Virus record (IMG/VR): IMGVR_UViG_3300017744_000175
Location: 1 to 22,850 of that record
DNA length: 22,850 nt
Reading direction: 5' to 3' (one strand)
Origin: a virus
The position numbers and the translations under genes are program-made. Below are positions 7,203 through 21,280 of this stretch, one piece after another (within the stretch, counting starts at the first letter, position 1; each line of letters opens with the position of its first letter). The notes under the pieces are model-generated. The model was given only the letters and a program-made list of their open reading frames with translations. It was not told the DNA's origin and did not search any database.

Positions 7203-7838
7203 CTACGAAATACTGAACTCCGAGTCTACGTCAGAGGGGGCTTCCGCTCCATCAGCAGGTTGAGTTACTCTTTGCAGTAGCTCTAATTGAGCATCTGCTG
7301 TTGGTCTCGCAAGTACGTCATCCATTGAACGCAAGTCAGCAATAGAAGCCAGCTCTTGTTCATTTAGAGGTCTTGGTTTGCACTTAAGTGCTTGGAGCCT
7401 ATACTCTACATTAAAAGCCATAGGTCCAGTTTTAACTCTTTGGAAGAAAACATCCCACCCTGTTTCAGGGTCAGTAGGATCGCCTAAGTCTTCTGCGGCA
7501 ACCATTATTTGTTCCATGAGTTTCTTTTTTAGATTAACAACTTTAACGTTGCCATCTGCTGGGTCAATAGCTTGAATAGCGTATGCCCAACCACATTTTA
7601 AGTCAGGAAAGAAAGACCTTACATGGTCTGTATCCTTGTTATTAAATGTTTCTGTGTTACGGTCGAAAGCAAGACATTCCATAGGAATATTTTTGCCGTT
7701 CTCACCTTTGATCCAGTAAACATACCTCGGAAGTATGTCGCCTACTAGTCTGAAGACGTTGTCTCCTTCTTTGTAAGTGTACTGATCTATTGAGGATTTT
7801 TTTGCACTCCCCTGTGCTTGATTAAATTTTAATGCCAT
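7203..7838 (-). CDS. Single-stranded DNA-binding protein (gp32-like)
   Basis: This 211-residue protein has a Lys-rich N-terminal segment, a central beta-rich core (about residues 20-170, with an OB-type look: 'NVFRLVGDILPRYVYW', 'CLAFDR', 'CGWAYAIQAID') and an acidic disordered tail ending Asp-Val-Asp-Ser-Glu-Phe-Ser-Ile-Ser. An OB core plus an acidic tail is typical of replication SSBs (T4 gp32, T7 gp2.5), where the tail recruits partners. No zinc-finger cysteine set like that of T4 gp32 is evident. I chose the ATG at 7838, not an in-frame ATG 10 codons upstream, because it has GGAGAA at the right spacing and follows the previous gene's TAA by one base. Its place just before gp47/46 fits recombination and replication. 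Confidence 0.8.
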   Translation of the reverse strand: MALKFNQAQGSAKKSSIDQYTYKEGDNVFRLVGDILPRYVYWIKGENGKNIPMECLAFDRNTETFNNKDTDHVRSFFPDLKCGWAYAIQAIDPADGNVKVVNLKKKLMEQIMVAAEDLGDPTDPETGWDVFFQRVKTGPMAFNVEYRLQALKCKPRPLNEQELASIADLRSMDDVLARPTADAQLELLQRVTQPADGAEAPSDVDSEFSIS

Positions 7839-7839
7839 T

Positions 7840-8238
7840 TTATGTTCTCCATTTAGCGTTATCTTCAAATAAAAAGTGTACTAGACCATTCTCTATTCGA
7901 AGCAATCTGTTGCGATTTACTATCGTTGTCTCAACAGGTAAGTGTATCAACTCTAGTGTTGTCTTTCCTGTTTGGTTATAATTGAAATAATTACGGTACG
8001 AAGCTACTGCCACATATTCGGCAGCTTCTTTGTTGCTATAATACTTTCGTTCAGCCAAAAGCTGTCTCGGATTTAACAGAAAACTGTCCCCGAGAAAACT
8101 TTTCCCAAAATATTTAAAGGTTTTGTCTTTACGACTGGCTGGAATTCTCTTGTAAGTCAAGAGGTGGATAATAGTGAGAATTGAAACACTATCGCCTTTC
8201 GCTTCTCTAAATATCTTTTCCCAATTATATTTTATCAT
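7840..8238 (-). CDS. Unrecognised 132-aa basic protein, first gene after promoter P1
   Basis: I do not recognise this protein. It is basic and rich in Lys, Arg and Tyr, with mixed helix and strand, no obvious catalytic motif and no membrane segment. It is the first gene downstream of P1 and heads the SSB-gp47-gp46-nrd operon, ending one base before the SSB start. The start is odd: ATG 8238 lies only 2 nt after the -10 box, upstream of the expected transcription start, has no Shine-Dalgarno, and the protein contains no other Met. Either transcription starts unusually close to the -10 box, or the gene is read from read-through transcripts, or it uses a non-ATG start further in. Confidence 0.75.
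   Translation of the reverse strand: MIKYNWEKIFREAKGDSVSILTIIHLLTYKRIPASRKDKTFKYFGKSFLGDSFLLNPRQLLAERKYYSNKEAAEYVAVASYRNYFNYNQTGKTTLELIHLPVETTIVNRNRLLRIENGLVHFLFEDNAKWRT
7845..7850 (-). promoter_or_regulatory. Ribosome binding site fixing the SSB start
   Basis: GGAGAA lies 6 nt before ATG 7838 and inside the upstream in-frame extension. It argues for the shorter, 211-residue SSB. Confidence 0.8.
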
Positions 8239-8240
8239 AT

Positions 8241-8269
8241 ATTATAACAAATTTTAAAACTGTTGTCAA
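8241..8269 (-). promoter_or_regulatory. Promoter P1, consensus sigma-70
   Basis: Read on the minus strand, TTGACA (8264-8269) and TATAAT (8241-8246) are separated by exactly 17 bp. An A-rich GAAAAATA-type tract and CT immediately precede the -35 box. It heads the operon running to the terminator at 151-176. It matches P2-P5 in layout and flanks. Predicted start of transcription is near 8234. Confidence 0.95.
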
Positions 8270-10234: not shown

Positions 10235-10710
10235 ATTTTTCTCCATGAGTTCTTTTTCTTTTCACTAGATGTATCGTATAAGAGCCAAGGAATATTATCT
10301 CTATAAAGTATTCCTGCCCATGCTTGGTCATCTTTGAGGGGTCTATCTAAGGTAAAGGGAAATGGGCAATCTTTTACCCACAACACACTTGCTACTGTTT
10401 TTAAGTCTACTCTTAATATCTTATGATACTTTAGAGTGGCTTTTTTTATTTTTTCTTTGCGAAAGAAATATCCTGTGTTATCTATGTAAAACTTTCCTTT
10501 GTGGTCAAGATATGACCGAATGTCTTTTATCATATACTTCACAGGATATATACTTTTCATCGGACTTTGGATTCTTCTCATGCCCAGTGTCTTGCCTTTC
10601 ATATTTTTATCGTCAAGAACTTGGTTTTCAATCCAAAGGATTCCATCTACTAATGTTATTTCATCAGTATGTACGGGAAAAATGGGAAATTGTATTTTAT
10701 CATATATCAT
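10231..10710 (-). CDS. Conserved marine T4-like phage protein, unknown function
   Basis: This 159-residue protein opens with a short Phe-Pro-Ile-Phe-Pro segment and 'VDGILWIENQVLDDKN', then 'GMRRIQSP' and a basic middle (KEKIKKATLKYHKI). A later 'ASVLWVKDCPFPF' and 'PWLLYD' precede the end. I recall proteins of this pattern downstream of replication genes in cyanophages, with no assigned function. The start is taken as ATG 10710, overlapping the polA stop by 11 bp, because the alternative in-frame starts lie well inside polA. The Shine-Dalgarno is weak. It ends in an ATGA overlap with the oxygenase gene. Confidence 0.75.
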   Translation of the reverse strand: MIYDKIQFPIFPVHTDEITLVDGILWIENQVLDDKNMKGKTLGMRRIQSPMKSIYPVKYMIKDIRSYLDHKGKFYIDNTGYFFRKEKIKKATLKYHKILRVDLKTVASVLWVKDCPFPFTLDRPLKDDQAWAGILYRDNIPWLLYDTSSEKKKNSWRKI

Positions 10711-12982
10711 ACATCTTGGTAAATTTTCCCAAAGAGTAATCATCATGTACATCAAAGTCACAGCCAACTGGTGTGCCTGGTATACTGAATCCTCTATCTT
10801 TTTGAATGAACTCCTGTAGCTTTTGTGAGTACAGGTCTATTTCATCTTCTGGCACTTCTGCTAGAATGGAGTCATGTACTAAAGCAAATATCTTTGATTT
10901 CATATTGTTACTTTTAACATACTCATTCATGTCAACAGCACCAAGTAAATTAATATCAGAAGCAACAGACTGAACTAAAAAGTTTAGACCAGACCTTACT
11001 TCATGACTTTGTATTCCTTGATTGTCAGATTTAACATTTGGTAGTCTTCTCTTTCTGCCTGTAGCACCATAAATAAATCCATTATCCATAATAAACTTAC
11101 TAGAAAGATCAATCCACTTTTTAAGTTTATGAAACTGCCTAAAGTAATCATCAATAACTTCTTGAGCATCTTGCTTAGTAAAAGGTTTGCCTGAGTCTGC
11201 TGTGACTTGCTGAGATATTTTACTTGCTCCAGCACCATACATTATGCCAAAGGTGACGGCTTTTGCAGCCTGTCTTTGTGTGGGATAAAGGTCTACAACT
11301 TCATCCGCCTCACAAGGTAAACCAAACACTAATTTAGCAATACTACTGTGGAAATTACCACCAGTCTTAAATACTTCCATTAGGTTCTTATCATCAGCAA
11401 GCACAGCAGCTACATATACTTCTGCAGTTGTTAAATCCATTGCAACAATCTTATTACCTTCTTTGGCACGAATACATCCTTTCACTATAGGATTGTCTCT
11501 AGGTATCTGTTGCATATTCATTTTTCCACTAGAAGATAGTCTGCCAGATGTCGTGCCGTGTAGATTAAACCCTGTGCGTAATCTACTATCTTTATCTAAT
11601 TGTGGATATATTTTGTCTAAATAAGTATTCTTAATCTTTGACTTCTGTCTTATACTAAGAATATGTTTAGGAATCTCATGTTCCTCTGCTAATTGTTTTA
11701 GTACTTCTGCATCTGTTGAGTGCTGACCTGTACCTGTCTTTTTGCCTGTTGGTTTTAACCCGACAAAATCAAACAGTAGTTCTCTTAGCTGTACTGTACT
11801 GTTTGGATTAAATTCTTTTTTCTTTGCATCTTCGAATCTTTGTACTGCTTCAAACTCATACAACTCATTCACTGCATTATCTATATCTGTTTGCATTAGG
11901 TCTCTGCCTTTAAGTAATCTTAGCTTATCAAAAGGTACACCGTTATCCTGTATATCTGTCAACATTCTACAGCCAGGTATAAGTATATTCTCATATACAC
12001 TAAACAGCTTTGCATTCTTTCGTACTGCTGGATATAACTTCTCAAATACTAATAGTGTTACTACTGCATCCATTGCCGCATATGTTTTCATAACTTCAAA
12101 AGGAATGCTGCCCCACTGAAAGTCTGCTTTCAGTATTCGGTTCTGCCTTTTATAGTTATCAATCCAATCATGCATAGGCTTCTCGTAGTCACCATAGTCA
12201 GTATGTTCCATAGCTAATTGTTTAAGACCATGTCCCCCAGGAACTTCGTCTAGGCAATAATGTAATAACATTGTATCTTCAAACTTTGGAAATTTAAAAT
12301 TGAAATGATACTCAAAGAAAGCCAAGTCAAACTTAGCGTTATGAAATACTACTATCTTTGTGTTGAATATTTCTTGCATTATATTTTCCATCTGCTCTGT
12401 AATAACATCTGTAATTATATAAGCACCTTGATGTTTTTTATATGACATACTAAATCCAAGCATATATCCATCACGAGGGTATAGTCCTGTAGTCTCAGAG
12501 TCAAGTGCAACATACTTATTTTCATGCTCTAATGCTTCTTGCAAGAATTTTAGCGCCTCATCTTCGGTATCTATACCTAAAGCCTGTTCTTCACTAACTT
12601 TCTTTACTACTAAATCTCCACTAATAAAATCAATTATATTAGTCTTGCTTTTGTCCCATAAAGGCTTAGCCTCGGGTTTGAAAGAAAGCATAGCAGGATT
12701 GATGACAGGTAGAAACTTATCTTCTACACATCTGCCACTATATTCTGTTATAGAATTGATACTAGTAAAAAACTTGAGTGATTCAGAGCCAACTAGTATA
12801 ACCCAGTCATACGTATCAACATCTATCTCGATGTCTACGTCTGCTTTGAGTATTTTCTTTTTGCTACTATCTGAGCATAAAGCATACCTGTCAAATTCGA
12901 AAGCATCATCAAATCGGTCAGACCAATTTGTTCTACTCATCTTTGATTCTATTATTGCTACTTGTGTCATTTGTTTTTCCAT
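10700..12982 (-). CDS. polA: Family A DNA polymerase with 3'-5' exonuclease
   Basis: This 760-residue replicative polymerase has no 5' nuclease domain; that activity is encoded separately at 3114-3977. After an N-terminal region of about 150 residues come the proofreading motifs: Asp161-x-Glu163 (DSETTG), 'FHNAKFD' and 'YAAMDAV'. Polymerase motif A is DLTTAEVY (Asp516, Glu521) in place of the usual DYSQIELR. Motif B is RQAAKAVTFGIMYG (Arg570, Lys574, Phe578, Tyr582). Motif C is His703-Asp704-Ser705, where most enzymes have His-Asp-Glu. Phe578 corresponds to E. coli Phe762. ATG 12982 lies exactly 6 nt after the P2 -10 box, so the mRNA is predicted to be leaderless. An alternative ATG four codons in would have GGA 7 nt upstream. 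Confidence 0.95.
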   Translation of the reverse strand: MEKQMTQVAIIESKMSRTNWSDRFDDAFEFDRYALCSDSSKKKILKADVDIEIDVDTYDWVILVGSESLKFFTSINSITEYSGRCVEDKFLPVINPAMLSFKPEAKPLWDKSKTNIIDFISGDLVVKKVSEEQALGIDTEDEALKFLQEALEHENKYVALDSETTGLYPRDGYMLGFSMSYKKHQGAYIITDVITEQMENIMQEIFNTKIVVFHNAKFDLAFFEYHFNFKFPKFEDTMLLHYCLDEVPGGHGLKQLAMEHTDYGDYEKPMHDWIDNYKRQNRILKADFQWGSIPFEVMKTYAAMDAVVTLLVFEKLYPAVRKNAKLFSVYENILIPGCRMLTDIQDNGVPFDKLRLLKGRDLMQTDIDNAVNELYEFEAVQRFEDAKKKEFNPNSTVQLRELLFDFVGLKPTGKKTGTGQHSTDAEVLKQLAEEHEIPKHILSIRQKSKIKNTYLDKIYPQLDKDSRLRTGFNLHGTTSGRLSSSGKMNMQQIPRDNPIVKGCIRAKEGNKIVAMDLTTAEVYVAAVLADDKNLMEVFKTGGNFHSSIAKLVFGLPCEADEVVDLYPTQRQAAKAVTFGIMYGAGASKISQQVTADSGKPFTKQDAQEVIDDYFRQFHKLKKWIDLSSKFIMDNGFIYGATGRKRRLPNVKSDNQGIQSHEVRSGLNFLVQSVASDINLLGAVDMNEYVKSNNMKSKIFALVHDSILAEVPEDEIDLYSQKLQEFIQKDRGFSIPGTPVGCDFDVHDDYSLGKFTKMYDI

Positions 12983-12988
12983 TTATAT

Positions 12989-13017
12989 ATTATATCAAAT
13001 TCTGAACGCTGTGTCAA
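12989..13017 (-). promoter_or_regulatory. Promoter P2, consensus sigma-70, drives polA (leaderless)
   Basis: TTGACA (13012-13017), 17-bp spacer, TATAAT (12989-12994), then ATATAA and the polA ATG. The A of ATG is at predicted +1. The -35 box contains the TGA stop of the HNH endonuclease gene. The downstream stretch TATAATATATAAATGG is identical to that of P4. Confidence 0.95.
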
Positions 13018-13676
13018 GAAATGTTTTTGAATATCTTTCCAGTCAGTTCCCTAAGCTCTTCGAGTAAATTATCTCCTTTTAGTTGATTACACTCTTTATG
13101 ACTAGGTACTATATTGCTGGGTTCACTACTTCCACCTTTACTGTGCGGTGTAATATGGTCTAACTCCATATTTTCTCCTTTTGGATTTATAATTAGTTTT
13201 TCTCCACAAAGATAACAAGGCATATGCCATTCTGTTTCTGATACTTTTACTAAACCTCTGTGGTCTTCCCAATATTTTATGTATGTTGTTGCTAACATTC
13301 CGTTTCTCCCTTTTACATTTTTTAATCTCTCTCTTATTAATTCCGATACAGTTTGATGTCTATTTGGTAACATTTCTACTATATCACTTTTCTTTTTTTG
13401 TTTTTCATTAAAGCTATGAAGTCGCTTATTAATCATACCTTCAATAGTACTTCTATACTTATTAGTTCTTTCTAGTATTTTTTCTCTAGTTGCCTTATTG
13501 AAATGAGGACTTATACTTCCTTTACTTGGTGCATCTCCACATATTTCAATACATCTTCTTCTAACTTCTGGAATAGTAAGCGTACCACCATCTTTAGTAA
13601 AACCACCAGCTTCTGTATGCCAGTCCTCAATCGTTTCCCAACCTATTTCTGTTTTCCATTTTCCCGCGCTAGGCAT
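13014..13676 (-). CDS. HNH endonuclease (putative free-standing homing endonuclease)
   Basis: This 220-residue protein has a basic N-terminal region with possible DNA-binding helices (about residues 30-125) and a C-terminal HNH nuclease. Zinc cysteines Cys154-x2-Cys157 (CYLCGE), the catalytic Asp173-His174 (LDHITPHSKGG), Asn188 and His193 with Cys196 (NIVPSHKECNQLKGD) are visible. It lies between primase and polymerase genes, a typical place for free-standing homing endonucleases in phages. A role as a mobile endonuclease is therefore inferred. ATG 13676 overlaps the primase end by 8 bp and has TGAGGA upstream. Its TGA stop lies inside the -35 box of promoter P2. Confidence 0.9.
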   Translation of the reverse strand: MPSAGKWKTEIGWETIEDWHTEAGGFTKDGGTLTIPEVRRRCIEICGDAPSKGSISPHFNKATREKILERTNKYRSTIEGMINKRLHSFNEKQKKKSDIVEMLPNRHQTVSELIRERLKNVKGRNGMLATTYIKYWEDHRGLVKVSETEWHMPCYLCGEKLIINPKGENMELDHITPHSKGGSSEPSNIVPSHKECNQLKGDNLLEELRELTGKIFKNIS

Positions 13677-17430: not shown

Positions 17431-18183
17431 TTATTTTCCTATTTCGTTTAAGTTGGTTATTATTTTAACACCCCTTTCTTGGGCTGTCCTCGTTTTTGCG
17501 GACTCAATACCGCTTTCATTCACTAATATATTTACATCTTTAGTCAAACTACTTTTAACAAGATAGCCCAGTTTTTCTAAATATTCTGTTGCTTGAGCTT
17601 TTGTCTTGTAGCTTTTTAGTTTTCCAGAGATACAAACAACTTCTTGATTTTCTGTGGGTTTGGACACTTTTAGTGTCTGTATCCAGCGAAATGGAAGTCG
17701 TTCATATCCGTCAATAAACTCTTCGTAATACCAGTCCAATAAATGTTCTGTTGCTACTGGTCCGAGGCCTGCCTCCTTACAAGTGTCCTCACTAATCTCT
17801 GCCATGTTTTTGATAACAGAACAAAGTTTAGCGGAAGCTGACCGACCAATTAGTTTAATAGAGAAAGCGGGTAATAAGTCAACCAAATCAGTAGCCTTAC
17901 TACTTTGAATTTCTCTATGCAGTTTAACTGCTAGTTTTTCGGATTGCAGTGCCTCAATCATAATTTCTAGAGGCAGCTCGTATATATCATACAAATCTTG
18001 AATTTGTAGTTTTTCTACTGTGCGAGGTCCGAGACCTTTGATTTTGAGAGCTGAAGCAAAGTGTTCAATTTTCTTTGTTGTCTTACCACCACACTTGGTG
18101 TTATGACAGAAAAGCTGATCTTTTTCCCACACTAAGTCTAACATACATGATGGACAGACTTTTGGCGGGACTATTTGTTTCAT
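17431..18183 (-). CDS. NAD+-dependent DNA ligase, C-terminal subunit (Zn finger, HhH, BRCT)
   Basis: This 250-residue protein equals the C-terminal half of a bacterial LigA. Zinc cysteines are Cys10, Cys13, Cys26 and Cys31 (CPSC...CHNTKC). Helix-hairpin-helix motifs follow ('KIKGLGPRTVEKL' near residue 50 and a second around 'LIGRSASAKL'). A BRCT domain closes it (about 180-250, 'VVCISGKLKS...KLGYLVKSSLTKDVNILV'). It has no adenylation domain, so it must work with the N-terminal subunit at 19179-20138; T5 has a similar two-gene ligase. It is the first gene after P3, with a leader of about 20 nt containing an AGAGAG-type Shine-Dalgarno. Confidence 0.92.
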   Translation of the reverse strand: MKQIVPPKVCPSCMLDLVWEKDQLFCHNTKCGGKTTKKIEHFASALKIKGLGPRTVEKLQIQDLYDIYELPLEIMIEALQSEKLAVKLHREIQSSKATDLVDLLPAFSIKLIGRSASAKLCSVIKNMAEISEDTCKEAGLGPVATEHLLDWYYEEFIDGYERLPFRWIQTLKVSKPTENQEVVCISGKLKSYKTKAQATEYLEKLGYLVKSSLTKDVNILVNESGIESAKTRTAQERGVKIITNLNEIGK

Positions 18184-18210: not shown

Positions 18211-18239
18211 ATTATAGCAAAAATCAGTTGCCATGTCAA
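18211..18239 (-). promoter_or_regulatory. Promoter P3, consensus sigma-70, drives ligase C-half
   Basis: TTGACA (18234-18239), 17-bp spacer, TATAAT (18211-18216), then ATATAAATAG. The spacer starts TGGC as in P4. Unlike P2 and P4, no ATG lies at +1; the leader is about 20 nt. The -35 box contains the TGA stop of the GIY-YIG gene. Confidence 0.95.
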
Positions 18240-18607: not shown

Positions 18608-19179
18608 TACTGCTCGTCAAACCAGTTGTAAACAGCATCGTCTAACCACTCCTGTGGAACTATACCACTATCTTCGTATTCTTCCCACCACTCAAAATCG
18701 TCTGGTAGTTCGTCTATACCTAATTCTTCGCATAGTTGTTCTACAAAGTCGTCACCGTCTGTTTCTTCATAAGAAGTGTTGCCCTTACTATCTGACCAAG
18801 CAACTCCCACAAAGTTTCTAAACTCATCTTCGTAATTCATTCGTAGATTTGTTTTCATATATCCAGCTAAATGCCCTAACATTTCTATTGGGGGTGACCA
18901 AGCTGAGTACCCATAAACTTGAGTCTCTTCTACTTCTTCAATATTGCACCACTTTGCTCCAACATTATCACAGTACCAACTATAACTATCACAAAGATAA
19001 GCATCTTCATCAAATTCTGGTTCAGCTGCTTGCATAAAGGGTTGTTTTTCTAGTTCTATTGCTTCTGTAACCTCCCAAGAGTTATCCTCCCAAGTACGGG
19101 TGTAGGTATGCATTTTGAATGATTCTGTAAAATCTACTTCTTTTTCCGCTGTTATATAAAATGATACATGATTTGCCAT
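18607..19179 (-). CDS. YubB/Api92-like (DUF1281) acidic protein
   Basis: This is a 190-residue, very acidic protein rich in Asp, Glu and Trp. Its opening MANHVSFYIT, the middle 'DNVGAKWCN' and 'YGYSAWSPPIEML', and the following 'YEDE' match, from memory, the plasmid YubB / phage Api92 family (DUF1281, ferredoxin-like fold). That family often sits in accessory regions of plasmids and phages, and its function is not established. The C-terminal 50 residues carry a dense run of Asp/Glu/Trp, so a DNA-mimic role (anti-restriction or anti-nuclease) is conceivable but unproven. The ATG has AAGGAG upstream and overlaps the ligase N-half stop as TAATG, so both are in one operon from P4. Confidence 0.75.
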   Translation of the reverse strand: MANHVSFYITAEKEVDFTESFKMHTYTRTWEDNSWEVTEAIELEKQPFMQAAEPEFDEDAYLCDSYSWYCDNVGAKWCNIEEVEETQVYGYSAWSPPIEMLGHLAGYMKTNLRMNYEDEFRNFVGVAWSDSKGNTSYEETDGDDFVEQLCEELGIDELPDDFEWWEEYEDSGIVPQEWLDDAVYNWFDEQ

Positions 19180-20138
19180 TAGACTCTCCTTACTATTCGT
19201 GGAATAATTTCTCCACTTCTAATTACTTCTACTCTACAACCAATCTCTAAGTCTAAATCAGATATATAACGCATGTTATGTAAAGTTGCTTTACTTACCA
19301 TTGCACCATCAATCTCAACAGGTTCTAAGTATGCTACTGGAGCAACTACTCCTGACTTACCCACATTCCAAACAACATCTAGTAGGGTTGTCTCAACTCC
19401 TTCTTGTATTTGTTTAAGAGCATAGGCTCCTCGTGGATGGTGTGCGGTGTATCCTCTACTTTCAAACTCTTTATGATTGTCTATGCGAAACACAAGTCCA
19501 TCGTCTGGGTACTGAGTCCAATTACTCATTGTAGCAGTACAGAAAAAAGAATCTTGTAAGAATATCATATCTTCAGCCCATAACGTATTCCAGCTTTCTT
19601 GTAAGCCATACGCTATAAAGCGCAGTTCTCTTTCACGAAATTCGTCTGTGGACTTTAGATTGAGTGCACCCGCTGCATAGTTGCGGGCATTTTTGATAGT
19701 CTTAGGGGCAACAACTTCGCCAGTAACTTGGACAATGTTCTGAACCTTCATACCATCAAAGTTTAAATGTTCAGGAACTAAGGTAGAGATATGGTTTGTT
19801 ATATCCAAACCACGCTTACCATCGCCTCTTGTTAATGCACGAAGTAGTTGTCCTTCGACATATAATAATGACACAGCAGCCCCATCTAACTTGGGTGTTA
19901 CAAGGACTGAACCCTTGTAGTTGTTAAATGGATCTTTTGTGCCAATCTCATTGGAAAATACCTTTTGTAATGAATACATAGGATACATATGAGGTACTCT
20001 GTTATCTGTTGAAGATGAACCAACTTCCTCATAGTCTATTAACTTAGCTAATCTATCAAACTGTGTGTCTGACATTGTTGGATTGCCATTATAGTAATCT
20101 CTTGATGCTGAGTCTAATACTTCTTTTAAATTTTCCAT
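19179..20138 (-). CDS. NAD+-dependent DNA ligase, N-terminal (adenylation + OB) subunit
   Basis: This 319-residue protein carries the catalytic half of an NAD+ ligase. A domain Ia-like segment comes first (YYNGNPTMSDTQFDRL, residues 15-30), which binds the NMN part of NAD+. Next is the nucleotidyltransferase with adenylated Lys83 (TPKLDGAA), 'TRGDGKRGLD', 'ARNYAAGAL', 'DDGLVFRID' and the final Lys-Gln. An OB fold follows (VGKSGVVAPVAYLEPV ... 'VSKATLHN'). It ends right after 'EIIPRIVRRV', exactly where bacterial LigA continues into the zinc finger, which is a separate gene here (17431-18183). ATG 20138 is 6 nt after the P4 -10 box. No later Met occurs before residue 22, so a leaderless mRNA is the simplest reading. 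Confidence 0.94.
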   Translation of the reverse strand: MENLKEVLDSASRDYYNGNPTMSDTQFDRLAKLIDYEEVGSSSTDNRVPHMYPMYSLQKVFSNEIGTKDPFNNYKGSVLVTPKLDGAAVSLLYVEGQLLRALTRGDGKRGLDITNHISTLVPEHLNFDGMKVQNIVQVTGEVVAPKTIKNARNYAAGALNLKSTDEFRERELRFIAYGLQESWNTLWAEDMIFLQDSFFCTATMSNWTQYPDDGLVFRIDNHKEFESRGYTAHHPRGAYALKQIQEGVETTLLDVVWNVGKSGVVAPVAYLEPVEIDGAMVSKATLHNMRYISDLDLEIGCRVEVIRSGEIIPRIVRRV

Positions 20139-20144
20139 TTATAT

Positions 20145-20173
20145 ATTATACAATTTTTTCGAAGCCATGTCAA
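20145..20173 (-). promoter_or_regulatory. Promoter P4, consensus sigma-70, drives ligase N-half (leaderless)
   Basis: TTGACA (20168-20173), 17-bp spacer starting TGGC, TATAAT (20145-20150), ATATAA, then ATG with its A at predicted +1. The stretch from the -10 box through the start codon is identical to P2, including the following GGAAAA. Confidence 0.95.
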
Positions 20174-20805: not shown

Positions 20806-21162
20806 TTAGTTATTTATTGCGTTGATAACACCTGTAAAGTATACTGATGCTTTGCCTGTCAATTTGTCAATGATGTCGTCATCGATTTCTTGACCAGCGT
20901 CACTCAATGCATCTTTCAATGACTGAGCAGCGTCAGCTTTACTTACTCTAGTACTACCGCCACCTGAGGCTTTAGCTGTACCAGTTGCAGGGGCTTTCTT
21001 GACATACACGCCAGCTTTAGTCAAAATCATTCTGACTCCGTTAGGGCTTTCGCCTAACTCTTCAGCTATATCTTTTACAATCTCCATTGAAGTTTCTGGA
21101 GTTGGTTCAGCTTCTGTGTACATCTCAACGGCTTGAGCTTTGGATTCATCTGTCCATGCCAT
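20806..21162 (-). CDS. Small putative DNA-binding protein with one WTDE/HTH unit
   Basis: This 118-residue protein has an N-terminal helical unit opening Ala-Trp-Thr-Asp-Glu and ending 'GESPNGVRMILTKAGVYVKK' (about residues 2-57). The unit resembles those repeated in the 241-aa regulator at 16703-17428. An Ala/Gly/Ser/Thr-rich linker (about 57-72) and an acidic helical C-domain (about 75-118) follow, perhaps for dimerisation. I chose ATG 21162, not an ATG 27 codons upstream, because AAGGAG lies 7 nt before it and the upstream ATG sits at the predicted transcription start. It is the first gene after P5, with a leader of about 80 nt. A transcription or nucleoid role is inferred. Confidence 0.75.
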   Translation of the reverse strand: MAWTDESKAQAVEMYTEAEPTPETSMEIVKDIAEELGESPNGVRMILTKAGVYVKKAPATGTAKASGGGSTRVSKADAAQSLKDALSDAGQEIDDDIIDKLTGKASVYFTGVINAINN

Positions 21163-21169
21163 GCGTCTT

Positions 21170-21175
21170 CTCCTT
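21170..21175 (-). promoter_or_regulatory. Consensus ribosome binding site fixing the 118-aa start
   Basis: AAGGAG lies 7 nt before ATG 21162. It decides against the 145-residue version that would begin at 21243. Confidence 0.85.
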
Positions 21176-21182
21176 TTTGTAC

Positions 21183-21216
21183 CTCGATAGCCAGGGCAAG
21201 TCCCTAATCTGTCGAG
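21183..21216 (-). promoter_or_regulatory. Possible folded leader of the P5 transcript
   Basis: Within the roughly 80-nt leader, CTCGA (21212-21216) and TCGAG (21183-21187) can pair. Inside them AGGG pairs with CCCT (21193-21196 with 21202-21205) around a 5-nt loop. The strong Shine-Dalgarno lies just downstream. P5 is the only one of the five promoters with a long leader, so translational control is possible; no known riboswitch is recognised. Confidence 0.4.
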
Positions 21217-21251
21217 TTGTTGTTGATAAAATCTATCTCCCATATATTAAT

Positions 21252-21280
21252 ATTATACAGAAAAATAGACGCTAAGTCAA
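21252..21280 (-). promoter_or_regulatory. Promoter P5, near-consensus sigma-70
   Basis: TTGACT (21275-21280, one mismatch), 17-bp spacer, TATAAT (21252-21257). It is preceded by AGTTC as in P3. A 6-bp inverted repeat, GAACTA/TAGTTC with a 5-nt loop, lies immediately before the -35 box (just after the 66-aa gene). Confidence 0.92.

Follow-up and report, generated by a model that had tools for sequence, protein, structure and literature searches.

Sigma70-type promoters six bases from the start codon predict a dual-start polA and clade-wide leaderless expression in marine T5-like phages

Results and discussion

In our study, the DNA polymerase gene (polA) of a T5-like virus was found to start exactly six bases behind the -10 element of a perfect sigma70-type promoter. 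It is likely that the polA mRNA begins at the first AUG, that translation is initiated at both Met1 and Met5, and that polA is one instance of a leaderless arrangement shared by the clade. On balance, we lean slightly towards the broader view that a clade of T5-like phages as a whole has shifted much of its early gene set, the replicative polymerase and the ligase among it, to leaderless expression driven by perfect sigma70 promoters; perhaps the host translates such mRNAs well, or infection shifts initiation towards recognition of the 5'-AUG. As was suggested earlier, leaderless initiation might also favour translation when ribosomes or initiation factors are altered. This predicted clade-wide habit is more interesting than polA alone. 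The preliminary description had centred on polA, and the arrangement is real there, but the window and the related contigs show that it is not peculiar to that gene.

Identity of the phage

The window, i.e., the whole stretch analysed, is a virus record of 22,850 bases and represents a 22.85-kb fragment of a genome. It contained the genes nrdB, nrdA, a D15-type exonuclease, D14, D13, D12, a D11-type ssDNA-binding protein, helicase, polymerase, primase, helicase, D5, ligB and ligA, in this order. Gene-order comparison and domain searches showed that the order is largely that of phage T5 and its relatives. The assignment to the T5-like phages (Demerecviridae) is drawn entirely from the replication-region genes of the fragment, which contained the T5 replication gene order, a split NAD ligase, D5, a primase, a family A polymerase and D10-D15. 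The polymerase was at best 44% identical to those of T5-family isolates, and many closer relatives were found in IMG/VR; these form a clade of uncultured marine bacterial viruses related to T5. A host search, in which genome contigs were scanned for a relative of polA, found none. A tRNA scan of seven stretches detected tRNA-Ala alone, in three of the seven, and gave no clue to the host. The promoters of T5 are of the sigma70 type and are used through the host RNA polymerase (PMC7472727); those of the window are of the same type.

The polA promoter and start region

The polA gene (10700-12982, minus strand) encodes a family A DNA polymerase of 760 aa with a 3'-5' exonuclease domain (Pfam DNA_pol_A, E 9.9e-78; DNA_pol_A_exo1). 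The minus-strand sequence across its start reads ...ttcTTGACAcagcgttcagaatttgaTATAATatataaATGGAAAAACAAATGACACAA. The -35 element TTGACA (13012-13017) overlaps the TGA stop of the HNH gene and is kept in most promoter-bearing relatives. It is followed, after a spacer of 17 nt, by the extended -10 element TGATATAAT (TGnTATAAT; 12989-12997), with the TG at 12997-12996 and the TATAAT at 12994-12989, so that the promoter matches the sigma70 consensus at 12 of 12 positions. The discriminator ATATAA (12983-12988) forms the six bases between the -10 element and the first ATG (Met1; 12980-12982). Transcription from sigma70 promoters usually starts 7 nt after the -10 hexamer, and the predicted +1, hence the predicted 5' end of the mRNA, is the A of this ATG. 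A second in-frame ATG (Met5; 12968-12970), homologous to the polymerase start in relatives, is present 12 nt or four codons further on. It is preceded at 7 nt by a weak Shine-Dalgarno-like GGA (12978-12980), with a duplex energy of -3.3 kcal/mol. Met1 itself has no Shine-Dalgarno sequence (+0.2 kcal/mol), and the first 46 nt of the polA mRNA are predicted to be unpaired.

Re-reading of the minus strand gave exactly the layout that had been described before, with TATAAT, six bases and ATG, and also the second ATG and GGA that had been added as a caveat. The further claim, that the A of the start codon coincides with +1, is a prediction for the transcript end; a 5' end at the first AUG or within 1-2 nt of it is well supported by the conserved promoter, its conserved spacing and the recurrence of the 6-nt distance at numerous unrelated genes of these phages, all of which lack a Shine-Dalgarno sequence.

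A free-standing HNH endonuclease gene (13014-13676, minus strand) was found between the primase gene and polA. In the related contig L003, whose polymerase is 98% identical, the end of the primase gene directly precedes the promoter. The HNH insertion left the promoter-polA junction intact.

Other promoters of the window

Only four promoters with 12 of 12 matches and 17-nt spacing were found in the window, starting at 8269, 13017, 18239 and 20173, together with one of 11 of 12 at 21280. All five are on the minus strand, and the reversed-pattern control gave none. The promoter class (TTGACA, 17-nt spacer, TATAAT) therefore exceeds chance in the window, with five sites against zero reversed at one mismatch or fewer. 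The distance from TATAAT to ATG was 6 nt in polA and ligA, and 8, 2 and 27 nt in the others.

The ligA promoter (TTGACA-17-TATAAT; 20145-20173) is a second one of the leaderless type, in which ATATAA and the ligA ATG follow. The ligA gene (19179-20138) encodes the adenylation and OB part of an NAD-dependent DNA ligase and has no Shine-Dalgarno sequence (+0.4 kcal/mol). The promoter with 11 matches (TTGACT-17-TATAAT; 21252-21280) has an ATG 8 nt downstream, which opens a DNA-binding protein gene (phrog_1725; 20806-21243), also devoid of a Shine-Dalgarno sequence (+0.9 kcal/mol); in its relatives the distance is mostly 7-8 nt. The promoter of ligB (promoter 18211-18239; gene 17431-18183) belongs to the same class and is followed by a leader with a GAGAG Shine-Dalgarno sequence, an internal contrast to the others.

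The fifth promoter (8241-8269) precedes a 132-aa ORF (phrog_4258; 7840-8238), the ATG of which lies 2 nt past the TATAAT and upstream of the predicted +1. Almost every relative has a distance of 2-3 nt here, with 8 nt in L047, and the start is homologous to that in isolates. The start codon of this ORF thus appears to be overlapped by a promoter whose own transcript could not use that ATG. The promoter class can therefore overlap a start codon for other reasons, which tempers the leaderless conclusion. At the DNA level, the first codons of this ORF (ATG ATA AAA TAT AAT) are near-invariant among the relatives.

The genes of the window without a Shine-Dalgarno sequence were polA (at Met1), ligA, the DNA-binding protein gene at 20806-21243 and the 132-aa ORF, whereas most others had values of -4 to -10 kcal/mol. 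Three promoterless genes were exceptions, being also without a Shine-Dalgarno sequence; two of these overlap their upstream neighbour.

Spacing and Shine-Dalgarno sequences in the clade

The survey covered the window and 13 related contigs (20 stretches). A promoter was defined as CTTGACA-N17-TATAAT with at most one mismatch, which gave 123 distinct promoters, and the start counted was the first ATG (ATG only) opening an ORF of at least 45 aa within 50 nt. Such an ATG was present in 99 of the 123. It lay at exactly 6 nt in 41 promoters and at 5-8 nt in 56, so that in 56 of the 99 promoters with a nearby start the start codon is at the predicted +1 or within about two bases of it. Pure chance as the source of the 6-nt spacing was rejected, since control TATAATs without a -35 element had an ATG at 6 nt in only 4 of 604 cases, as against 41 of 123.

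When the genes were grouped by protein similarity, 6 nt was the commonest distance in 8 of 18 families, including ligA, polA, a DNA-binding protein (phrog_624), a PPK2-like kinase and a short WTDEQV-type protein. The phrog_624 family had 6 nt in all 11 of its promoters with eight different hexamers; the length is thus held while the sequence drifts. In contrast, the offsets of ligB ranged from 8 to 27 nt. The spacing of ligA was 6 nt in 35 of 36 related loci, and at both polA and ligA the start in the loci read was ATG, not GTG or TTG. Where promoters had no start codon at this position, the first transcribed bases were mostly not ATG, and the ATG is therefore not simply a feature of the promoter.

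A Shine-Dalgarno sequence was scored when the duplex with the anti-Shine-Dalgarno reached -3.4 kcal/mol or lower. None of the 56 starts located 5-8 nt past the -10 element reached this value (mean duplex +0.5 kcal/mol), whereas 56% of the leadered starts, the same share of other ORFs and 14% of random sites did so. The absence of a Shine-Dalgarno sequence before the start, as is expected of leaderless genes, was thus found for Met1 of polA, for ligA and for the class of 56.

The polA start among relatives

The 12/12 sigma70-type promoter of polA was conserved in dozens of marine T5-like contigs, and four arrangements were found among the relatives. In several relatives the promoter is absent and polA overlaps or abuts the end of the primase gene. 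In L048, L055, L057, L061, L075, L081 and their near copies, the promoter is followed by a sole usable ATG 6 nt past the TATAAT, behind the hexamers ataata, atataa, aaagtt, atagat or ataaaa. The window and its sisters contain two ATGs, the first at 6 or 7 nt and the second 12 nt on, always in frame. In the fourth arrangement the offset is 20-25 nt, with AAGGA in its largest group. In L010/L232 (from 3976; 91-kb contig), the conserved promoter is separated from polA by a 70-aa ORF, which has a Shine-Dalgarno-like AAGG of its own.

In a maximum-likelihood tree built from 60 polymerases, the dual-start state was not confined to a single subclade. Next to dual members sits the nested main leadered clade; it has lost the first ATG and has an offset of 22-25 nt with AAGGA, with Met5 as the sole start. 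The Shine-Dalgarno sequence of the second start had -3.3 kcal/mol in the duals versus -5.6 in this clade. L081, nested among the duals, has lost the second Met and retains the +1 ATG alone. Each start has been dispensed with in some lineage; this pattern of loss suggests that both polA starts can work. The earlier description of polA as leaderless holds in part: Met1 lacks a Shine-Dalgarno sequence and lies at the conserved 6-nt spacing. The gene is best called dual-start and not purely leaderless, because Met5 is homologous to the start of other T5-family polymerases, and one nested clade with AAGGA has no other start. Read in this way, the window polA probably has a 5'-AUG mRNA that carries two in-frame starts, a leaderless Met1 and, to some extent, Met5.

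Alternative explanations for polA

The alignment of Met5 with polymerase starts of leadered relatives and T5-family isolates, the GGA duplex of -3.3 kcal/mol and the loss of the first ATG in one nested clade would all be expected if Met5 were the only working start. The mRNA would then carry the 12-nt leader AUGGAAAAACAA with GGA as a weak Shine-Dalgarno sequence, and the first AUG would be a by-product of the initial transcribed sequence. We consider this doubtful. Ten dual-start sequences have retained the first ATG, in frame and without exception 12 nt before the second, whereas the offsets of leadered relatives vary; L081, inside a dual subclade, has lost the second Met and retains the +1 ATG alone; and the same spacing occurs in genes without any second start. 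A leader of 12 nt would also fall within the range of 4-14 nt that was not found in Lactococcus cremoris (PMC10986495).

Translation of polA mainly from read-through mRNA of the primase/HNH operon, in which case the promoter would serve downstream genes and overlap the start codon only incidentally, is very improbable. Such an mRNA would offer Met1 no Shine-Dalgarno sequence (+0.2 kcal/mol), random overlap does not predict an exact 6-nt spike in eight gene families, and T5 has a working promoter, Ppol, before its polymerase gene (PMC7472727). This holds even though polA overlaps the primase end in several relatives that lack the promoter, and a promoter overlaps the start codon at the 132-aa ORF. 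Read-through mRNA from upstream genes could nevertheless be an additional supply of polA.

With dual initiation as the preferred reading, the strong sigma70-type early promoter would fire polA, and the mRNA would begin at the A of the first AUG. The ribosome would bind this 5'-terminal AUG for leaderless initiation at Met1, and some initiation may occur at Met5, 12 nt on, helped by the weak GGA. Both products would be the same polymerase, four N-terminal residues apart. The spacing of exactly six bases and the lack of Shine-Dalgarno sequences were observed at many early promoters, and the genes behind them would be leaderless across the clade.

Comparison with known systems

Outside actinobacteria, archaea and Thermus-like hosts, leaderless genes are usually regarded as isolated cases, and leaderless early genes are uncommon among lytic phages. 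The literature search found no description of leaderless genes in T5-like phages. In T5, promoters with a downstream ORF start are located 27-55 nt from the ATG (13 cases, two mismatches or fewer), and in the Vibrio phage Ceto 30-49 nt from the start, with one at 3 (10 cases, two mismatches or fewer). In the polymerase genes of T5-family isolates, a promoter at leaderless distance was not found, and most contained a purine-rich Shine-Dalgarno leader. Judged from promoter spacing, the marine clade is alone among the phages compared in showing the shift to 6 nt. The early promoter Ppol of T5 resembles that of the window in being of the sigma70 type, placed before pol, with an AT-rich discriminator (ATATT in T5 early promoters, PMC7472727; ATATAA in the window), whereas T5 promoters lie 27-55 nt from the ATG and that of the window polA lies at 6 nt.

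The lambda cI and transposon tetR mRNAs are naturally leaderless in E. coli, and their 5'-terminal AUG binds 70S ribosomes (PMC4965119). They share with the window a start codon at +1 (predicted in the window) and the lack of a Shine-Dalgarno sequence. Both are single regulatory genes, whereas the marine arrangement would involve many genes from the replication region of a T5-like and presumably lytic phage. The Thermus phage phiYS40 has middle and late leaderless transcripts of many genes (reviewed in PMC3594737), and leaderless mRNA is common in hosts of the Deinococcus-Thermus phylum (PMC12340547). Many leaderless genes in one phage are likewise predicted for the marine clade; however, those of phiYS40 are middle/late genes in a Deinococcus-Thermus host, whereas those of the marine clade are early-type genes with perfect sigma70 consensus. 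Beck et al. (2016) described mRNAs of E. coli in which a 5'-terminal AUG, to which ribosomes bind, precedes a start with a Shine-Dalgarno sequence (PMC4965119). The window polA likewise has a 5'-AUG and then an internal AUG with a Shine-Dalgarno sequence, but the first AUGs of those mRNAs open short separate upstream ORFs, whereas the two starts of polA share frame and protein. The E. coli 5'-AUG mRNAs may also initiate internally, which fits the dual arrangement of polA.

A clade with so many start codons at or near the predicted +1, next to sister phages with ordinary leaders, makes the switch between leadered and leaderless initiation, its course and its causes, open to study by natural comparison, and the polA lineages even show the loss of either start. 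In such phages, starts may be misplaced by gene callers that depend on Shine-Dalgarno sites.

Observations in other contigs

In L231, a PPK2-type polyphosphate kinase gene was found at 7558-8193 (Pfam E 1.5e-44); the gene has leaderless spacing in two marine contigs. Viral contigs were also scanned for the promoter followed by N6 and ATG. Among the at least 120 matching loci listed, a biased set chosen for the match, the other promoters peaked near 30 nt from the start, with a small second mode at 6-7 nt, some of it apparently from this marine clade. The viral contig L361 contained four promoter-like sites, one exact and three near TTGACA-N17-TATAAT, each with an ATG 6 nt downstream; three of the four were near-identical around the ATG.
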